In this document: piece after piece, positions 18,978 to 41,024 of the stretch
Layout: every line of letters starts with the position of its first letter
Numbering within the stretch: position 1 is the stretch's first letter
From: Aegicerativicinus sediminis
GTDB taxonomy: Bacteria > Bacteroidota > Bacteroidia > Flavobacteriales > Flavobacteriaceae
Assembly: GCF_015476115.1 (NCBI RefSeq)
Contig: NZ_CP064295.1
Span: 124,001 to 188,000, forward strand
Direction of reading: 5' to 3'
DNA length: 64,000 nt
The notes under the pieces: generated by a model
What the model was told of the DNA's origin: nothing
Seen by the model: only the letters and a program-made list of their open reading frames with translations
Databases searched by the model: none
Program-made: the position numbers and the translations under genes

Positions 18978-20166
18978 AAGATCGAAAATATGGCTCTATC
19001 TTATAGTATTCATCATTCTTTTGATGATGGTGGCAGAAATAACAAAGCCAAAAGCTATAAATTGGCGCGATTCTTATTCGGCTTCAGACAAAATACCACT
19101 TGGTTGTTACATTATTCACAATGAATTGAATTCTTTTTACAATAAGGAACTTATAACAACAAATCAAGCCTTATATGATTTCATTAAAGAGTACAAAAGT
19201 GATAATAAAACCACTCTTTTAATGATTAATAATGAATTCCATTTTGATAAGGAGGAATCAAAGATTTTGGAAGAATTTGTATCAGAAGGTAATTCTGTTT
19301 TTATAAGTGGGCTTTATTTATATGGGGCATTGGCCGACACTTTGAATTTGTCGACTATGTGGAGTTATAATACCCTTTTTAAAAAGCAATCCCATAGCCT
19401 ATTTAACAGCCCAAGTTTGAAAGATCGTTCTGCCTATTTTGAGGACGTAATTGAAAATTCTTATTTGAACAAGATTGACACTACCAATACTTTAGTCCTT
19501 GGTAATATGCGTCCTAAAGATTCAACAAAGACTTATGTGAACTACGTGAAAATACCATTTGGAAATGAAAATGGTGCATTTTATGTACATACTAATCCAT
19601 TTGCCTTTACAAATTACCATATGCTAAGGGACAAAACCGAATATGCGGCAGCGGTGCTCTCATTTTTGCCAAACGACATTTTAATTTGGGATAATTACCA
19701 TAAAACTGGCCGCAAGGTTATCACCAGTCCTTTGCGTTTTATTTTAACTAATTCAGCATTGCGGTGGGGTTTTTACGTAAGTTTAATTGGGTTAATTTTA
19801 TATGTGTTATTTCAAGGAAAGCGAACCCAAAGAATTATCCCAATTGTAAGTCCACCAAGAAACGCCTCGGTAGAATTTACTAAAACCATTGGCGATTTAT
19901 ATTTTCAACATGGAGATTACAGCAATATTATTGGCAAAAAAATAACCTACTTTTTAGAATATGTTAGGTCTACCTATTATCTGAATACCGACCAATTTAA
20001 TGAAAGGTTTATTCGCAATTTATCTCAAAAGTCTGGTAATACTATCGAACAAACCAAACAATTGGTTGATTATATAATTTATTTAAAAAACAAAAATCAA
20101 CATAATCAGAAAGAATTAATTGAATTGAATAAGTTGATTGAACAATTTAAAACAGCAACAACATAA
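18970..20166 (+). CDS. DUF4350 domain protein
   Basis: The 398-residue protein has an N-terminal membrane helix (about 7-23) and a GAT-like DUF4350 domain on the outer face (about 35-250), with DSYS.SDKIPLGCYIIHNEL near its start. A second membrane helix lies near 262-282, followed by a cytosolic C-terminal domain. The gene overlaps both neighbours (8 bases upstream, 1 base downstream), which shows tight coupling with MoxR. The function is unknown; the association with MoxR/DUF58 suggests a membrane-complex role. Confidence 0.87.
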   Translation: MDRRSKIWLYLIVFIILLMMVAEITKPKAINWRDSYSASDKIPLGCYIIHNELNSFYNKELITTNQALYDFIKEYKSDNKTTLLMINNEFHFDKEESKILEEFVSEGNSVFISGLYLYGALADTLNLSTMWSYNTLFKKQSHSLFNSPSLKDRSAYFEDVIENSYLNKIDTTNTLVLGNMRPKDSTKTYVNYVKIPFGNENGAFYVHTNPFAFTNYHMLRDKTEYAAAVLSFLPNDILIWDNYHKTGRKVITSPLRFILTNSALRWGFYVSLIGLILYVLFQGKRTQRIIPIVSPPRNASVEFTKTIGDLYFQHGDYSNIIGKKITYFLEYVRSTYYLNTDQFNERFIRNLSQKSGNTIEQTKQLVDYIIYLKNKNQHNQKELIELNKLIEQFKTATT

Positions 20167-34064: not shown

Positions 34065-34122
34065 AGTGATTTAGAGTTTAGACAGAAATTTGTGCGCCAT
34101 CAATCTAAATCTATCTCCAAAT

Positions 34123-35157
34123 ATGGTTAAAATAAACAATAATGTTGAATCCAGTTCAGAATTATTACCTTCTATTAATAAAGTATTAAACGGAAATCTT
34201 TCAACAGAAAATGGCGAAACAATACTTTCGTTTAATAATCATTTGGGCAAGGGGAAAATTAGAAACATGGATTTTTCCCATGGCGTATCCCTATTAAGTT
34301 TCAATTTGAAGTTTAATTCGGATGTTCAATTTATTTTTAATAATAAAAAGTTCAATCCAATTGAATTTATTTTTATTACCAAGGGTGAACTTTACTTCCA
34401 AGATTCAAATGAGGAAGAAACTTCCAAACTTTTACAGTACCAAAACATTATCATCTCAAATAAGAAGTCTAGTCAATCTTCTTACATTTTCCCTAAAGAC
34501 AAAAAGATAAAGGTCAACTTTATAATGATTCTTAGAGACCAGTACAACTTGAAGTCTAATCATAACGTTGACACGCTTGAAAAATCAATCAAATACATTT
34601 TTGATAAGGATGGAGATAAAGAGGATTATAGCCACCTTGGAAGTTTTAATCTTAAGATTGCCGATTTAACCAAACAATTGAATAAAACCAGGGACTCAGG
34701 AATTATTCGTTCATTAACAATTGAAGGTTATATCGCTTTAATTATGGCTATGCAGCTTATGGAGCACCATAACCATATTAATGATGTAATATTACCAGAA
34801 TCCTTAAGCCAAAGTGATATAAAGAAAATACACAAACTTTCGGGCTTTATCGTAGATCATATCTCCGAAGATTTAACTGTAAAAACTCTAGCCATGGAAA
34901 TTGGGTTGAGTCCAAAAAAACTACAGTTAGGCTTTAAGCTATTATATTCAAAATCAGTTAATGAATATGTACGTCAGCATAAATTAGAGATTGCTCGAGA
35001 TTTAATTAAAAATACAGATTATTCAATATCTGAAGTGGTCTATAAAATAGGATATAGGAGCAGAAGCTATTTTTCTAAAATTTTCCAGGAGTATTATGGT
35101 ATACTACCAATTGATTATCGGGAAAAGGTTAAGTCATCAACCTTCGTTAAATCTTAG
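34123..35157 (+). CDS. AraC family transcriptional regulator, paralogue 2
   Basis: The preferred start is ATG at 34123 (MVKINNNVESSSELLPSI); a TTG at 34090 would add eleven residues. The C-terminal AraC domain has LTVKTLAMEIGLSPKKLQ and SISEVVYKIGYRSRSYFSK followed by FQEYYGILPIDY. The N-terminal part has the shared LGKGKIRNMDFSHGVSLLSFN motif. It is closely related in layout to the other three AraC genes of this region. Its end overlaps the convergent SRAP-like gene by 11 bases. Confidence 0.92.
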   Translation: MVKINNNVESSSELLPSINKVLNGNLSTENGETILSFNNHLGKGKIRNMDFSHGVSLLSFNLKFNSDVQFIFNNKKFNPIEFIFITKGELYFQDSNEEETSKLLQYQNIIISNKKSSQSSYIFPKDKKIKVNFIMILRDQYNLKSNHNVDTLEKSIKYIFDKDGDKEDYSHLGSFNLKIADLTKQLNKTRDSGIIRSLTIEGYIALIMAMQLMEHHNHINDVILPESLSQSDIKKIHKLSGFIVDHISEDLTVKTLAMEIGLSPKKLQLGFKLLYSKSVNEYVRQHKLEIARDLIKNTDYSISEVVYKIGYRSRSYFSKIFQEYYGILPIDYREKVKSSTFVKS

Positions 35158-35851
35158 CAGGAATATTCCTATAGTTTACAGGATCTAAAATACCGTTGTA
35201 AATAATATCATTTTTATAAAACTCTTTGGCGATGGGATGCGCATTTAATTCAGTTTGAGCAGGCCTATTAATTATTTCCTCTATTTCTTCTTGTGAAATG
35301 TCATAAGACAACCATTTTTCTGATGTGTGCTCATCTAAGATTATCGGCCCTTCGTTAAAAATGTCCACTACGCTTCGTTTAACTCCTAGATTTCGTGAAA
35401 TTATTATTGAGCAGGTTACAAAACCATCAGATAACCGATTGTAAATTCCAGCAAGGCAAAAAGGCTTTTTAGACTTTTTATAAACATAATATGGATACAA
35501 CTTGCCTTTACTCAGCAAAGTTGCAAAATAACCTGAAACAATAATCAAACAGCGACGTTCATAAAGTGCATCACAATACCACCTGTCATGCTTTAAGGTT
35601 TCAGCTTCTAAATTCAAGGTATTCGAGACGTTCTGGAACATTTGCCAATCGTCGTTAAAGTTTTCAGGAAGAATTCCCCAAATGGCAATGGACAACACTT
35701 GAGGTTTATCTTGGAGAATAACCAAAAGGTTTTCCTCATTTAAACCATTTATAATGGGTTGTTTTGAATATAATTCGGGATACTCTAATGGAATGCCAAA
35801 TTGCTTTTCCAGCTCACCCCCCTCAGCAATATTTGACAATTTATAAAACAT
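35147..35851 (-). CDS. SRAP (HMCES/YedK)-fold protein without catalytic residues
   Basis: The 234-residue protein follows the SRAP domain: WGILPENFNDDW, NLEAETL, YERRCLIIVSGYF, PFCLAGIY, TCSIII and a final WLSYD segment. Active SRAP proteins crosslink abasic-site DNA through Cys2 and use a Glu and a His. Here residue 2 is Phe (MFYKL), the usual GFYEW reads GYFATL, and the usual IHxRMPVIL reads IFNEGPIIL, so all three key residues are gone. No in-frame upstream start restores Met-Cys. It is probably a non-catalytic paralogue that may still bind DNA. Confidence 0.78.
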   Translation of the reverse strand: MFYKLSNIAEGGELEKQFGIPLEYPELYSKQPIINGLNEENLLVILQDKPQVLSIAIWGILPENFNDDWQMFQNVSNTLNLEAETLKHDRWYCDALYERRCLIIVSGYFATLLSKGKLYPYYVYKKSKKPFCLAGIYNRLSDGFVTCSIIISRNLGVKRSVVDIFNEGPIILDEHTSEKWLSYDISQEEIEEIINRPAQTELNAHPIAKEFYKNDIIYNGILDPVNYRNIPAKI

Positions 35852-35928
35852 TTCCGTAGCATTTTTATATTACAAAGTAACCCAATTTTAAATTTTTGAA
35901 GTTGTTTGAAAAAAATTTTAAATAACGC

Positions 35929-35948
35929 ATTCGATCTTAACATCGAAT
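35929..35948. repeat. Palindromic site between SRAP-like and AraC 3 genes
   Basis: ATTCGAT-N6-ATCGAAT is a perfect 7-bp inverted repeat 78 bases upstream of the SRAP-like gene and 176 bases upstream of the AraC gene. There is no adjoining T run, so a protein-binding site is more likely than a terminator. Confidence 0.4.
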
Positions 35949-36123
35949 TTACCAAACAACCTGTTTAAGCCTTAAATATCAGTTCTTTTGCTCTATTTTG
36001 TTAAACAAAAATTCTTTTTCATTAACACATATGCATAATGATAGGTACATTTACTAATGATTAGTTGTTCAATATTTTTATTTAAAAATACAACAAAAAA
36101 AGCTAGTCTATTTAAAAACCGTT

Positions 36124-37164
36124 ATGAAAAATAGTCCTATCCCCTCTGAACTTTTAAGTTTCTCTAAGGCACTAAATTCTGACATAAGAGAACAGTATGG
36201 CATTTATGATCTTAATGTTCCCGAAAAGTTAGGCCAAGGTACTGTTAGATGTGTTGCCTTTGATAAATATATCACGGCTATTGACTTAAATATTAATCTC
36301 AACAAAGAACAAAATATCCCACTGATTACCCCAAAAGAAGATGCAGTATATTTTATTTATTGCCTAGACGGAAATTGTTTTATTAATTCTGAAGCCAATG
36401 ACCGTTTGCAACTCGACAAATTAAAGACTGCCGTGATAATGAATCGACAAGATTTTGAACACGCCTTGATCTTAGGTAAAGATTTTAATCTCAAACTTAA
36501 TATTGTTGTTGTAGACAAAAAACATTACTTCAAGAAATTTTTGAATGGGTATTACCATTCAAATATCAAGCTTGAAAAACTATTAGAATCCTTTGATACA
36601 TTAAAAAAGGATGTCCATCTGGGAGCCTACAATTTAAAAATTACAGAGCAAATCAGATTGCTGCAATTTGAAGACAGAGCTAACGATATTACCGACTTGC
36701 TATATTTAGAAGGTATATACCACCTTATTCTAGCTTATCATATTGAGCAATTTTATCAGGAAATCCAAGAAGAAGAGAAATTTTCAAAGCTTACTAATAC
36801 CGAATTACAACAAATTGGTCTACTAAGCGAGTTTATAATTTCCAGACCGGAAATTCAGCACTCTATCGATAGTCTTTGCCGTAAGGCAGGTATGTCTCCA
36901 GCTAAATTACAGGATGGCTTTAAGTATTTGCACGGTAAAACTGTATTAAACTATATACGTAGTGTCCGTTTAGATAAAGCCGATCAATTGCTTAGAGATT
37001 CAGACTTAAATATTTCTGAAATTGTTTACTCCATTGGTTTTACCAGTAGAAGTTATTTTTGCAAAATATTTAAGCAAAAATACCGCTGTACCCCTAAGGC
37101 TTATAGGAAAATGGTACGGAATAAGACTTTAGAGAAAAAAGTACTTGAAGAATTATTAGATTAA
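36124..37164 (+). CDS. AraC family transcriptional regulator, paralogue 3
   Basis: The 346-residue protein has a C-terminal AraC domain (SIDSLCRKAGMSPAKLQDG and NISEIVYSIGFTSRSYFCK, then KYRCTPKAYRKM). The N-terminal sensor-like domain carries the shared motif EKLGQGTVRCVAFDKYITAIDLN (residues 36-58). It is longer than single-domain regulators and lacks a membrane segment. Its transcript ends at the strong terminator at 37183-37215. The region ahead of it includes a TTTTGTT-A-AACAAAA palindrome at 35996-36010. Confidence 0.93.
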   Translation: MKNSPIPSELLSFSKALNSDIREQYGIYDLNVPEKLGQGTVRCVAFDKYITAIDLNINLNKEQNIPLITPKEDAVYFIYCLDGNCFINSEANDRLQLDKLKTAVIMNRQDFEHALILGKDFNLKLNIVVVDKKHYFKKFLNGYYHSNIKLEKLLESFDTLKKDVHLGAYNLKITEQIRLLQFEDRANDITDLLYLEGIYHLILAYHIEQFYQEIQEEEKFSKLTNTELQQIGLLSEFIISRPEIQHSIDSLCRKAGMSPAKLQDGFKYLHGKTVLNYIRSVRLDKADQLLRDSDLNISEIVYSIGFTSRSYFCKIFKQKYRCTPKAYRKMVRNKTLEKKVLEELLD

Positions 37165-37182
37165 AATTATTGTTACACTATT

Positions 37183-37215
37183 AAAAAAAGCCCGATGTAG
37201 ATCCATCGGGCTTTT
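37183..37215. terminator. Bidirectional terminator between AraC 3 and DUF2383 genes
   Basis: AGCCCGAT-N8-ATCGGGCT is flanked by A6 on the left and T5 on the right, between convergent genes. Confidence 0.88.
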
Positions 37216-37246
37216 TACGCTATATATTAGTATTAGGAGAACTTAA

Positions 37247-37699
37247 TTAATCTCTTAAATCTTCTAGTGTACGAATCTTGCTAAGTCCACTGGAAATTTT
37301 ATTTCTTTGGGACATAAGAACATTCTTTGTGCTCAATGGCAAACTTGCCTCTTCCAAAACATCATCATATTCATCTAAGGCAGCCTTTTCTCCCCTTATC
37401 GCCTCTTCCAACATGGACTCTGCATCGTCTGCAGAAAATAGAGATTTAACATCCATCCAGGTTCTGTGAAGTGATCCAGTAATACTGCCACCTTTTTCAA
37501 CCTCCTGACCAAAACTTCTAATCTCTGATTTTAATTCGTGTCCAAAATCATAACGCTCCTGTGCCTTTTGATTGAAATAAGATTGTAGAGCAGAATTATC
37601 AGCATTTTCAGCTGCTTTCTTAAATCCTTTCTCAGCATCATAAGTCCGTTCTAACAATTCATTTAATTTATTACCGACATTTTCTGTGTAAGTACTCAT
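37247..37699 (-). CDS. DUF2383/PA2169 family four-helix-bundle protein
   Basis: The 150-residue soluble helical protein matches DUF2383: LLERTYDAEKGFKKAAENA, YFNQKAQERYDFGHELK, TWMDVKSLFSADDAESMLEEAIRGEKAALDEYDDVL in parts. The conserved Glu/Asp/His positions resemble those of ferritin-like bundles, although metal binding is unproven. Members are stress-linked in several phyla. It is monocistronic, with a 283-base gene-free stretch upstream in which I see only AT-rich sequence. Confidence 0.88.
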   Translation of the reverse strand: MSTYTENVGNKLNELLERTYDAEKGFKKAAENADNSALQSYFNQKAQERYDFGHELKSEIRSFGQEVEKGGSITGSLHRTWMDVKSLFSADDAESMLEEAIRGEKAALDEYDDVLEEASLPLSTKNVLMSQRNKISSGLSKIRTLEDLRD

Positions 37700-37982
37700 A
37701 ATTAGTTTATTTATATGTTATCGGATCGTAATTCATGAATATTTTCCGATTAATATTCGCTTTATAGCATTACAAGAACAAATGTATTAGGTAGTTTTTA
37801 GCTCAATTGTTTGAAATAATTCAAACATTAACTCTTTCAGTTTTAACGTTTTATTAAGCATTTAACATTAAAATCACGCTAATTGTCGATGGACAAAGGA
37901 ATTGAAAAAAATGATTGAATGGGCATTAAGAATTTCCTAAGGATAATTTCGGAAACCGTTAACAAATTTGCTAGGCTATTAT

Positions 37983-39083
37983 TTAGCCTTCAAACTGAAA
38001 TGGATCAAAATCTTTAATGATTTTTAAAACAGCTTGTTCTGACAAACTAAAATTTGGAAGTTCCTTTTCATCTTTTTCTACTCGGGAAAAGACCTTAAAC
38101 ATCCTACCATTATAATAAGAAGAAACTACGGCAGGATGCACATAATAGTTTCGAGTAACATTTCTGGTGTTACCTAATGATTTAGCCGCAACATCATAGG
38201 CTGATAAAACATTCTTTTTTGAGACTGATTCATCTTCTGATGGCCCCATTTCCATTAGAGTTTCAAAAAATATTATTGTGGCTGCCCAAGTTCTAAAGTC
38301 CTTAGCCGTGAAAGAAGCTCCGGCCAATTGTTGAATATAAGCATTTATCATGGAGCTATCTACTGAACGCCTTTCACCCTCCTCATCATAATATTTAAAA
38401 AGTTCCCATCCCGGAATCTCTTGGCTTTTATTTATCAATCGCACTAATTTCTTGTTTCTCAAAGTAATTTTGTGCTCCTTGCCCTTTTTCCCAACGAACT
38501 CAAAACGAATCTTGGTTCCGTTTAAATTAACATGCTTTTTACGTAGGGTAGAAAGTCCGTAGGTTTTATTTCGTTTTGCATACTGTTGGTTGCCTATACG
38601 GATGTGGGTTTCTTCTAGCAACTTAACAACTAGTGCTAGAACTTTTTCCCTACCCCAATTCTTTTGTCGTAAATCCCTTTCAACCGCTTCCCTTAATGCA
38701 GGTAGGATTAATCCAAATTCAGACATTCTATAAAACTTAGTCTGATTTCTTATTTTATTCCAAATAGGATGATAACGATATTGCTTTCGTTGCTTTTCAT
38801 CTCGGCCAGTTGCTTGAAGATGTCCATTTTCTAAATGCGAGATTTTTACTTTTTCCCATGCTGGTGGAATGACTAAACTATTGAAGCGTTCAATTTGTTC
38901 GGGTTCATCAATGATGTTATCCTTGAGTTTATACTGAAAGGATTTCCTTATTTTAATTCGCTCAATGGAAAGTTGACGCTCTGTTGTATAGACGAGATTA
39001 ATTTTCTCGACAGCCAATTCTGGCTCACTGAATAATTTTTTAATTAATCGTTTTGAAAATTTCGGCTTAATTACAGAAGGCAT
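37983..39083 (-). CDS. DNA topoisomerase IB (poxvirus/bacterial type)
   Basis: The 366-residue protein has the bacterial TopIB layout: an N-terminal beta domain with NSLVIPPAWEKVKIS and GHLQATGRDEKQRKQYRYH, then a catalytic domain with the basic residues of LEETHIRIGNQQYAKRNKTYGLSTLRKKH and KDFRTWAAT. The nucleophilic Tyr lies in RNYYVHP (Tyr313-314). It relaxes supercoiled DNA through a 3'-phosphotyrosine link. It is transcribed with hemerythrin: the gap is 12 bases. Confidence 0.95.
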   Translation of the reverse strand: MPSVIKPKFSKRLIKKLFSEPELAVEKINLVYTTERQLSIERIKIRKSFQYKLKDNIIDEPEQIERFNSLVIPPAWEKVKISHLENGHLQATGRDEKQRKQYRYHPIWNKIRNQTKFYRMSEFGLILPALREAVERDLRQKNWGREKVLALVVKLLEETHIRIGNQQYAKRNKTYGLSTLRKKHVNLNGTKIRFEFVGKKGKEHKITLRNKKLVRLINKSQEIPGWELFKYYDEEGERRSVDSSMINAYIQQLAGASFTAKDFRTWAATIIFFETLMEMGPSEDESVSKKNVLSAYDVAAKSLGNTRNVTRNYYVHPAVVSSYYNGRMFKVFSRVEKDEKELPNFSLSEQAVLKIIKDFDPFQFEG

Positions 39084-39095
39084 CAGTGATGTAGT

Positions 39096-39530
39096 TTATT
39101 CATGAGAAGCCATATGCTTTCTATAGGGCTCGGCCAAATCAGTTTTTTGCTTTTCAGTAAAAACTTTGCCAGCCAATTGAAAAAATACATGTTCTTCATC
39201 TTCTAAATGATGTTCGACTTTTTCCTTTAGCTTTTTGGCAATTACCAACCAATTAGATGCAGAATACTCAGTAGAGTCCAATTGCTCAATTAATTCTTCT
39301 ATCTCATGGTGTTCCGCAATCCCATGCCTAGCATGGTCCTGCATCATATCACTAGAAATTAGTGGTTTATAGAAATACCGCTCTTCGGCATCAGCATGAA
39401 TGAGTAATTGGCTTTTGATTTTTGAATAGATTACGTCTCTATTTTTACTATCACCGGAGGTTTCTATTAATTGAGCCAAAAGATCCCTCTGTATGTCATG
39501 ATCCTTTCTTATAGCTTCGAAAATGTTCAT
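39096..39530 (-). CDS. Hemerythrin HHE domain protein
   Basis: The 144-residue four-helix protein has the di-iron His/Glu pattern of HHE hemerythrins: KDHDIQRDLL, HADAEERYFY, HARHGIAEHHEIEELI and VEHHLEDEEHVFF. Bacterial members bind O2 or NO or act in iron and redox defence. It leads a two-gene operon with topoisomerase IB. A perfect terminator hairpin sits only 17 bases ahead of its ATG on the same strand, so its expression may be attenuated. Confidence 0.92.
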   Translation of the reverse strand: MNIFEAIRKDHDIQRDLLAQLIETSGDSKNRDVIYSKIKSQLLIHADAEERYFYKPLISSDMMQDHARHGIAEHHEIEELIEQLDSTEYSASNWLVIAKKLKEKVEHHLEDEEHVFFQLAGKVFTEKQKTDLAEPYRKHMASHE

Positions 39531-39544
39531 ATCAACTAACTTAT

Positions 39545-39683
39545 TTAAAAAATCTCAGCACCAGAAAACTAGTGCTGAGATCTAACTAACTAACCTTTAT
39601 ATTCTAAAATTATCATGTAATAGCACTCTTAGTAGGGAGGAGTCTACTTTCTCGTAGGCCTATAAATAAGATAACTACGATAA
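39545..39683 (-). ncRNA. Candidate small RNA or attenuated leader upstream of hemerythrin gene
   Basis: A promoter-like pair lies on the reverse strand: CTTG at about 39719-39716 and TATCTTTA at 39697-39690, 18 bases apart. It would start a transcript near 39683. This runs about 138 bases to a perfect terminator and encodes no convincing peptide. AGTGCT in its 5' half can pair with AGCACT of the terminator 5' arm, so an antiterminated form is conceivable. The -7 match lacks the final G of TAnnTTTG. Confidence 0.4.
39546..39581 (-). terminator. Perfect terminator 17 bases upstream of the hemerythrin ATG
   Basis: On the reverse strand ATCTCAGCAC-N10-GTGCTGAGAT forms a 10-bp perfect stem followed by T5. 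No gene lies upstream on this strand for over 2 kb except the opposite-strand AraC gene, so it must end a non-coding transcript or act as attenuator. Confidence 0.8.
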
Positions 39684-39776
39684 TTTTTTTAAAGATACCA
39701 TATGTACGTTTAGACAAGGTGCTATTTAGGTTAAAACATTGACTGAATCGGTTTATTATCAAACTTTTACAAAACA

Positions 39777-39854
39777 TTAACACTTTTAAGAATTCTTGTT
39801 AAAGAAAAAGCCAATTCGGTATTTTTTGTTTAAAGTTTTTATAAAAAGTGTTAA
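39777..39854. repeat. Inverted pair of AAAAGTGTTAA sites upstream of AraC 4
   Basis: TTAACACTTTT (39777-39787) and AAAAGTGTTAA (39844-39854) are perfect 11-bp inverted copies, 56 bases apart. The same 11-mer occurs ahead of AraC paralogue 2. Confidence 0.5.
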
Positions 39855-39971
39855 CATTTAGTTAGAGAATAGTCCTTGTAGATATAAGTTAACGTAATTT
39901 TAATGAAGCTCCTTTAAACCAGGAACAACTTCAAATAAACTTTATCACACATTAATTAACCATTTTACCAA

Positions 39972-41024
39972 ATGGTAAAAACCATTAAATCTTATATGAT
40001 ACAAATTCATAGTACCTCAACAAATTTCCCAGACAATTTAAAAAGTTTTCAAGCCTCTCTTGGAGGAGTAATAGAAGAAAAATATGGGGAATACCTTCTA
40101 ACAGTAAATAATGCCCTTACAAACGGAACTGTCCGTTTTCTTCAATTTGACAGAGGAATTAGCCTAATAGAATATGACCTAGAATCTAAAGAAGACCTTC
40201 TTTTTGTTGAACACTCAAAGAAATATAACCCAGTAAAGTTTTCCTATTGCCTTGATGGTGAGGGAAGCCACAAATTTGAGGGTTATACTGAATACAGTGA
40301 TATAGAACCTTTCCAATCAGTTATAACTTGTAACAAAAAAGATAGCAGTGAACACCTATTAGTGAAAAAGAATAAGCGATTTAAAATGACTTCTATTCAC
40401 GTTGTCCGCTCAAAGTTCCGCAAGAAAAGGATGCAAACGTTAACACAACTTCATCCAGATCTATTTCATGTTTTTTTAGATAAAAAACAGAAAAACAACT
40501 TTGCGCATTTTGGAACTATCCATCTTGGCATAAGCGAACATGTAAAATCCATGCGCAACATTCTTGCCGAAGGTATGACCAGAGTCTTGCAAATGGAGGC
40601 GAAATCCTATATCATCCTGTCATTACATATCCAACAATTTGCGATTGAAAAAGCTGAAAAAGTTGCATGTACGCCATTAACTGAAAGAGAGCTGAAGACT
40701 GTAAGAGAGGTTGCTAAAACAATCGTTTCTAGTCCTGCACAGCCTTATAATTTGAATGACATTTCTAGAAATTTCGGCTTATCGCAATCTAAATTACAAG
40801 GAGGTTTCAAATTCTTATTCGACCATACGGTGACTGAATTTATAAGAAGTACAAGACTTAAAGAAGCAAAAGAATTAATGAAAACAACCGATATGAATAT
40901 TTCTGAAATAGTTTATTCCATTGGCTTTACCAGCCGAAGCTATTTCTCAAAAATATTCAGAGAAGAATATGCCATGTCTCCAAACCAATATAAAAAGAGA
41001 TTAAGCTATCCATTGGTAGCCTAA
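39972..41024 (+). CDS. AraC family transcriptional regulator, paralogue 4
   Basis: The 350-residue protein has a C-terminal AraC domain (YNLNDISRNFGLSQSKLQGG and NISEIVYSIGFTSRSYFSK, then FREEYAMSPNQYKKR). The N-terminal domain has the shared motif NALTNGTVRFLQFDRGISLIEYD. An ATG at 39996 is an alternative start, eight residues in. The second HTH segment is almost identical to that of paralogue 3, which indicates recent duplication or strong constraint. It is followed at once by the convergent stress operon. Confidence 0.93.
   Translation: MVKTIKSYMIQIHSTSTNFPDNLKSFQASLGGVIEEKYGEYLLTVNNALTNGTVRFLQFDRGISLIEYDLESKEDLLFVEHSKKYNPVKFSYCLDGEGSHKFEGYTEYSDIEPFQSVITCNKKDSSEHLLVKKNKRFKMTSIHVVRSKFRKKRMQTLTQLHPDLFHVFLDKKQKNNFAHFGTIHLGISEHVKSMRNILAEGMTRVLQMEAKSYIILSLHIQQFAIEKAEKVACTPLTERELKTVREVAKTIVSSPAQPYNLNDISRNFGLSQSKLQGGFKFLFDHTVTEFIRSTRLKEAKELMKTTDMNISEIVYSIGFTSRSYFSKIFREEYAMSPNQYKKRLSYPLVA

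Follow-up and report, generated by a model that had tools for sequence, protein, structure and literature searches.

The C-rich UCCC small RNAs of Staphylococcus are otherwise different RNAs that expose one short shared motif. Bacteroidota are not known to have the classical Hfq, and few of their small RNAs have an established mechanism. FopS (RF04319) of B. thetaiotaomicron, as described in PMC11697453, comprises short RNAs of 65-70 nt, with 5'-terminal seeds, in which a shared single-stranded stretch is followed by an intrinsic terminator; the stretch is shared by several loci per genome, and FopS represses mRNAs by pairing near their start codons. Independent flavobacterial small RNAs, the Rfp RNAs, are also reported in a study of Flavobacterium psychrophilum (PMC9723704).

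The window analyzed here is a stretch of 64,000 nucleotides from Aegicerativicinus sediminis (genome G000). It contains a gap of 441 nt between a hemerythrin gene on the minus strand and an AraC-family gene on the plus strand, with a minus-strand hairpin that, from the sequence comparisons below, very likely ends an independent small RNA gene, s1, divergent from the AraC-type regulator (Table 1). The predicted RNA resembles FopS in its single-stranded stretch and terminator, but the s1 orthologues do not have the FopS layout: their shared stretch lies just before the terminator and after a 5' domain, in RNAs of 76-150 nt. With the FopS model, 39543-39626 gives a weak alignment of 22.6 bits, far from the 56 required for gathering, and the corresponding locus of G001 has no FopS match at E <= 10. 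From the staphylococcal UCCC RNAs, s1 differs in motif and phylum, and in that its motif is tied to the pre-terminator position.

Table 1. Features of the s1 locus and the second predicted RNA, s2 (window positions unless a locus is named)
Feature	Position	Strand	Basis or remark
s1, predicted small RNA of ~138 nt	39547..39684	-	start from -7 box, end at T-run; placed by models R1 and R3
Exposed motif AAAGGTTAGTTAGTTAG	39582..39598	-	identical in G001; predicted unpaired
Terminator hairpin, 13 pairs, loop of 4	39552..39581	-	fold and double changes across nine orthologues
T6 tract of terminator	39547..39552	-	sequence
-7 box TATCTTTA	39690..39697	-	5/6 fixed letters of TAnnTTTG; aligned in place with orthologue boxes
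TTG of -33 region	39715..39717	-	promoter pattern; lost in some orthologues
Upstream block AATAGCAC (GATACAGCAC and similar in relatives)	39719..39726	-	read from orthologue comparison
Upstream block CAGTCAA	39739..39745	-	same in G322, G121; CAGTTAA in G014, G417, G267
AraC-family regulator, divergent neighbour of s1	39972..41024	+	HTH_18 and HTH_AraC
Hemerythrin gene, next downstream in 3/9 genomes	39096..39530	-	PF01814
DNA topoisomerase IB, behind hemerythrin	37983..39083	-	PF01028
s2	L144:1466-1595 (G000:C1 ~267.5 kb); also L155, L233	-	motif before terminator, sigma54-type promoter

The initial annotation had reported a perfect 10-bp stem with T5 ahead of the hemerythrin gene. The hairpin is indeed there, but it is larger: the arms ATCTCAGCACTAG and CTGGTGCTGAGAT (39552-39564 pairing with 39569-39581) form 10 Watson-Crick pairs and then T.G, A-T and G-C, hence 13 pairs around a TTTT loop, and the tract is T6, with 16 bases between it and the hemerythrin ATG (39530). 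The hairpin folds at -21 kcal/mol (z -6.0, equalled by none of 200 shuffles), and the 155-nt stretch ending just past it at -43.5 kcal/mol (z -3.9, equalled by one of 200). It is absent from the output of a simple terminator scan; a possible reason is that pairing can continue from the stem into the T-run. As had been claimed, no upstream gene on the hemerythrin strand would need this terminator: there is no minus-strand ORF of at least 60 aa between the hairpin and the AraC gene at 39972.

Concerning the start of the RNA, a flavobacterial-type promoter, TTG-N17-TATCTTTA, extends from 39717 to 39690, with a predicted start near 39684. This is the promoter-like pair to which a transcript of about 138 bases had been attributed. 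Taken alone it is weak, because such pairs are common in the window (1.7-2.0 per kb and strand), and it gains weight from its like position in the orthologues. A conserved coding frame was not found: seven of the nine predicted RNAs have no small ORF of at least 10 aa, and those of G001 and G069 are unlike each other. A leader peptide was considered and rejected: both genus members carry an open short frame that ends in EYKG, but by eye that of G001 lacks an ATG. The covarying terminator, and a predicted promoter placed alike in orthologues, would suit a trans-acting intergenic small RNA. Rfam 15 gives nothing at gathering score in the window, and two tRNAs only in 20 related loci; weak matches to RsaJ, mir-3036, FopS and others, all below gathering, were set aside. 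The last 14 letters of the s1 motif have a predicted unpaired probability of 0.67, against 0.42 for the whole RNA.

We compared 397 genomes of one family, probably the Flavobacteriaceae, among which G001 is the only other member of the same genus. G001 keeps the end of the RNA at the matching place, between an AraC gene and a DUF2383 gene, and GAATATAAAGGTTAGTTAGTTAG is identical in both genomes; no hemerythrin match was found in G001 at E <= 0.001. Between the two sequences, four of the 13 hairpin pairs are changed on both sides and all 13 still pair, which 36 of 500 shuffles also achieve, and the G001 stretch folds with a z of -5.8. Relatives of the AraC protein at E <= 1e-60 occur at 45 places in 44 of the 397 genomes. 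The motif, with up to two mismatches, on the divergent strand and at most 400 nt from the AraC gene, flanks 10 of these places (8/30 plus 2/15) and is missing from the flanks of the other 35; at the same mismatch level it is found nowhere in 150,408 nt of control sequence.

Nine of these ten genomes, representing four genera, were aligned; G214 was left out, as its hairpin may belong to a neighbouring AraC gene. In all nine, s1 lies in the same place, its GGTTRGTTAGTTAG-like stretch exposed and its terminator covarying. A covariance comparison across relatives, as proposed in the initial annotation, finds the terminator helix kept in these orthologues (97.5% paired), with double changes in 5/9 pairs, and none of 500 shuffles matches it in paired percentage, number of double-change pairs or covariation score; the count of further pair types among the nine sequences is reached by 337 of 500 shuffles. 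The nine predicted RNAs, whose 5' ends are predictions from the -7 boxes, all combine 5' pairing, the exposed motif and the terminator. The motif is more often unpaired than the whole RNA in 9/9 predictions (0.58-0.73 against 0.35-0.45), and a consensus fold of five orthologues recovers the terminator but not the 5' hairpin. The -7 box is a perfect TAnnTTTG in G322, G121 and G290 and imperfect in the other six; the RNA start in G001 is uncertain because a further, perfect promoter lies closer to the motif. Upstream, the orthologues share the blocks CAGTYAA and GATACAGCAC, or relatives of these. A similar module is present in G073, G198 and G344, 1.4-1.9 kb from the AraC gene and after a 150-aa DUF2383-looking ORF, and model R3, built on the nine sequences, has no match at E <= 0.5 in seven distant AraC relatives from the contig scan.

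The motif itself extends well beyond the AraC gene. The 13-mer GGTTGGTTAGTTA, counted through its exact complement TAACTAACCAACC, occurs 309 times in the 397 genomes (187 genomes), and the reversed word 145 times (119 genomes). We examined 92 distinct places, made up of 90 loci from the search list and three G000 loci that had been recognized earlier as 5' sites: the motif strand runs directly into a terminator at 51/92, the other strand at 9/92, and 34/92 were classed as other, some with terminators that are imperfect by eye. Model R1, built on the two genus members, finds 33/397 genomes at E <= 0.1, about chance, and several of its matches read GGTTGGTTAGTT immediately before the terminator. 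Model R3 finds 247/397 genomes at E <= 0.05 (224 of the 330 good ones) against a chance expectation of some 20, with E-values rough by a factor of about five and training sequences as its strongest matches. We conclude from these sequence patterns that the unpaired pre-terminator stretch is probably the hallmark of a regulatory RNA family not described before. A literature search for the motif letters found no relevant use, the two matching papers being unrelated by title and abstract.

In 464 kb of G000, R3 gives four matches at E <= 0.5, namely s1 (E 2.5e-10), a second predicted RNA, s2 (0.02), and two weak ones. A weak match within the window (19938-20014, minus strand, 20.2 bits, E 0.32) is probably due to chance. 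s2, with the motif before a terminator, lies near 267.5 kb, beyond the window, and has a counterpart at the corresponding location in G001. By eye, its neighbours encode a hydrolase and a porin-like protein, and the gene next after it is DUF819 in G000 and also in G283, from a different genus (by Pfam for G283), but not in G001. Among 38 places with an s2-like 5' flank, TTGGCAC followed by TTG stands 71-97 nt before the motif in 19 (92-97 nt in 16 of these), and the reversed word in none; by its letters, the s2 promoter is of sigma54 type. It thereby resembles Rfp36, which appears in the alternative-sigma promoter table of PMC9723704, apparently in its sigma54 section; the two are likened by description rather than by sequence, and are possibly related. 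Either s1 or s2 may already have been detected among the Rfp RNAs of that study.

Our favoured reading, to which we give a probability of about 0.55 as a whole, is that s1 is transcribed divergently from the AraC-type regulator and probably under its control, that it would act in trans, its exposed stretch pairing with TAACTAACC-type sites immediately ahead of start codons, that this pairing would hinder translation of the targets, and that some read-through would feed hemerythrin where that gene directly follows. A ranking of all 4096 hexamers by enrichment in 244 5' regions (464 kb of G000) is led by ACTAAC, with 12 occurrences for an expected 2.9, and CTAACC, with 9 for an expected 2.0. TAACTAACC lies at most 40 nt before an ATG-ORF at 17/52 sites in G000 and G001 together, against 2/52 on the other strand; 13 of the 17 are in G000, where about 1.4 would be expected in 5' regions, and two of the 13 fall inside longer ORFs. 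The genes behind such sites include an ECF sigma factor and three DUF6090-like proteins, one of them below the Pfam cut-off. These last three (L166, L180 and L181) have TAACTAACC 6-16 nt ahead of the ATG, two of them carrying the complement of the whole 13-mer, and the shared site could reflect paralogy of their 5' regions. A 25-nt near-copy (23/25) of the s1 motif region was also observed in G000 (L013:1501-1525, G000:C1:2595064-2595088), opposite in strand to a MarR-like gene and just beyond its stop codon, so that the end of the MarR-like mRNA could pair with s1.

Support for such pairing is limited to G000. ACTAAC and CTAACC are not enriched in the 5' regions of G001 or G015; in those of G015 (L394-L413), ATCAAT ranks first and AATCAA third by enrichment, a word different from that of G000. 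Of 60 shuffled motifs, 9 (G000), 31 (G001) and 9 (G015) form at least as many strong duplexes with translation starts as the s1 motif does; for the family motif the corresponding numbers are 1, 18 and 18. The exact 13-mer stands before an ATG-ORF at 8/92 places, three of them chosen beforehand, and equally at 8/92 on the other strand. A reversed 10-mer does so at 2/29, and is a poor control for a stop-codon-bearing word because it rarely lies outside ORFs (1/29). We therefore set aside TAACTAACC sites as general targets, for want of family-wide support and of hexamer enrichment in G001 and G015, and retain them as candidates in G000.

The gene next to s1 bears on a different reading, in which the hairpin is a transcription attenuator that keeps transcripts from reaching hemerythrin and topoisomerase IB except when some signal tips the RNA towards an antiterminator. 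Hemerythrin comes next in G000, G290 and G069 (3/9, two genera), at 16, 25 and 31 nt from the model end, which leaves scant room for a separate promoter. DUF2383 follows instead in G001, G014, G267 and G417 (4/9; 190, 512, 187 and 295 nt), and SRAP in G322 and G121 (2/9; 166 and 171 nt), as named by Pfam for the proteins of G290, G069, G121, G014 and the window and by likeness for the remaining next genes. Against an attenuator for hemerythrin, 6/9 genomes have other genes next, 166-512 nt off. Because the next gene varies, the AraC-s1 pair is, on this comparison, the constant part of a changing gene set and the RNA is its stable unit. The initial annotation had wavered between an independent small RNA and a signal-responsive leader for hemerythrin; the former gains from the persistence of motif, terminator and AraC adjacency whichever gene follows. 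As for the leader, the two segments AGTGCT and AGCACT proposed to form an alternative fold are both present, and before the second hairpin arm exists their pairing belongs to the best fold (-18.2 kcal/mol). In the full RNA, however, forcing it gives -18.9 kcal/mol against -38.4 kcal/mol for the best fold, some 20 kcal/mol worse, and a six-base complement of this kind arises in 13.9% of shuffles. None of the eight remaining orthologues offers a complement longer than 5 nt, and complements this short turn up in 36-100% of shuffles, which is chance level; no conserved, mutually exclusive antiterminator was found. Attenuation as the main role of s1 appears quite improbable. Where hemerythrin is next, it may be fed by read-through from the s1 promoter or by a promoter inside s1.

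The main rival to pairing, unlikely in our view yet to be taken seriously, holds that the exposed GGTTGGTTAGTTAG stretch is mainly the site of an RNA-binding protein, such as an RRM protein, that stabilizes or restrains small RNAs and mRNA 3' ends, with regulation exerted through the protein or other parts of the RNAs. The same stretch recurs ahead of the terminators of unrelated RNAs and downstream of protein genes (the 51/92 places above), which fits such a site better than a shared target set, and in Bacteroides the RRM protein RbpB binds single-stranded regions of small RNAs (PMC11697453). A protein site alone would leave unexplained why the complement of the motif is the top word of 5' regions in G000, and pairing remains the favoured, if unproved, mechanism. 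The conserved element might also be a DNA site or an incidental terminator, serving for instance the AraC protein or spurious transcription, with no functional RNA. Conservation of the promoter-region blocks would suit this, but helix covariation, a conserved unpaired stretch and its recurrence before unrelated terminators would all be unexpected, and we hold it to be very improbable.

Pairing and protein binding could also be combined, in the more doubtful proposal that the pre-terminator GGUUGGUUAGUUAG is a shared docking site of a global RNA chaperone, serving the AraC-linked s1, the sigma54-type s2 and stress mRNAs at their 3' ends, with targets supplied by the complement in 5' regions. 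A family-wide pre-terminator motif, if true, would provide one RNA bait for a chaperone search and one word marking candidate RNAs and targets in many genomes, and through AraC-linked s1 and sigma54-type s2 it would be linked to stress control.

Several further observations concern the surroundings of s1 and of the motif. In the window, 34090-41024 is a regulator-rich, stress-type island where three genes of AraC-like regulators take turns with those for SRAP, DUF2383, topoisomerase IB and hemerythrin; these include SRAP at 35147-35851, DUF2383 at 37247-37699 and a second AraC gene with HTH_AraC at 36124-37164. Elsewhere in the family, the motif and terminator stand downstream of protein genes at L272, L279, L277, L278, L275, L345 and L191-L194; the genes ahead encode Hsp20 (in G141 by Pfam, in G279 by likeness), DUF2383-like proteins, the hemerythrin of G015 and a Ser/Arg-rich ORF. 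In G001, three tandem copies of about 113 nt (L157:1475-1790), each with a tRNA 3' part and a spacer containing GGTTAGTTA, sit between tRNA genes and an elongation factor Tu-like gene; they were rejected as small RNAs, lying by eye within repeated tRNA spacers. Finally, at L237, L323, L324, L326 and L335 the motif lies between complementary arms, GGGAAGGG-like and CCCTTCCC, and so probably in a hairpin loop, which would make this a different structured RNA with the same motif.
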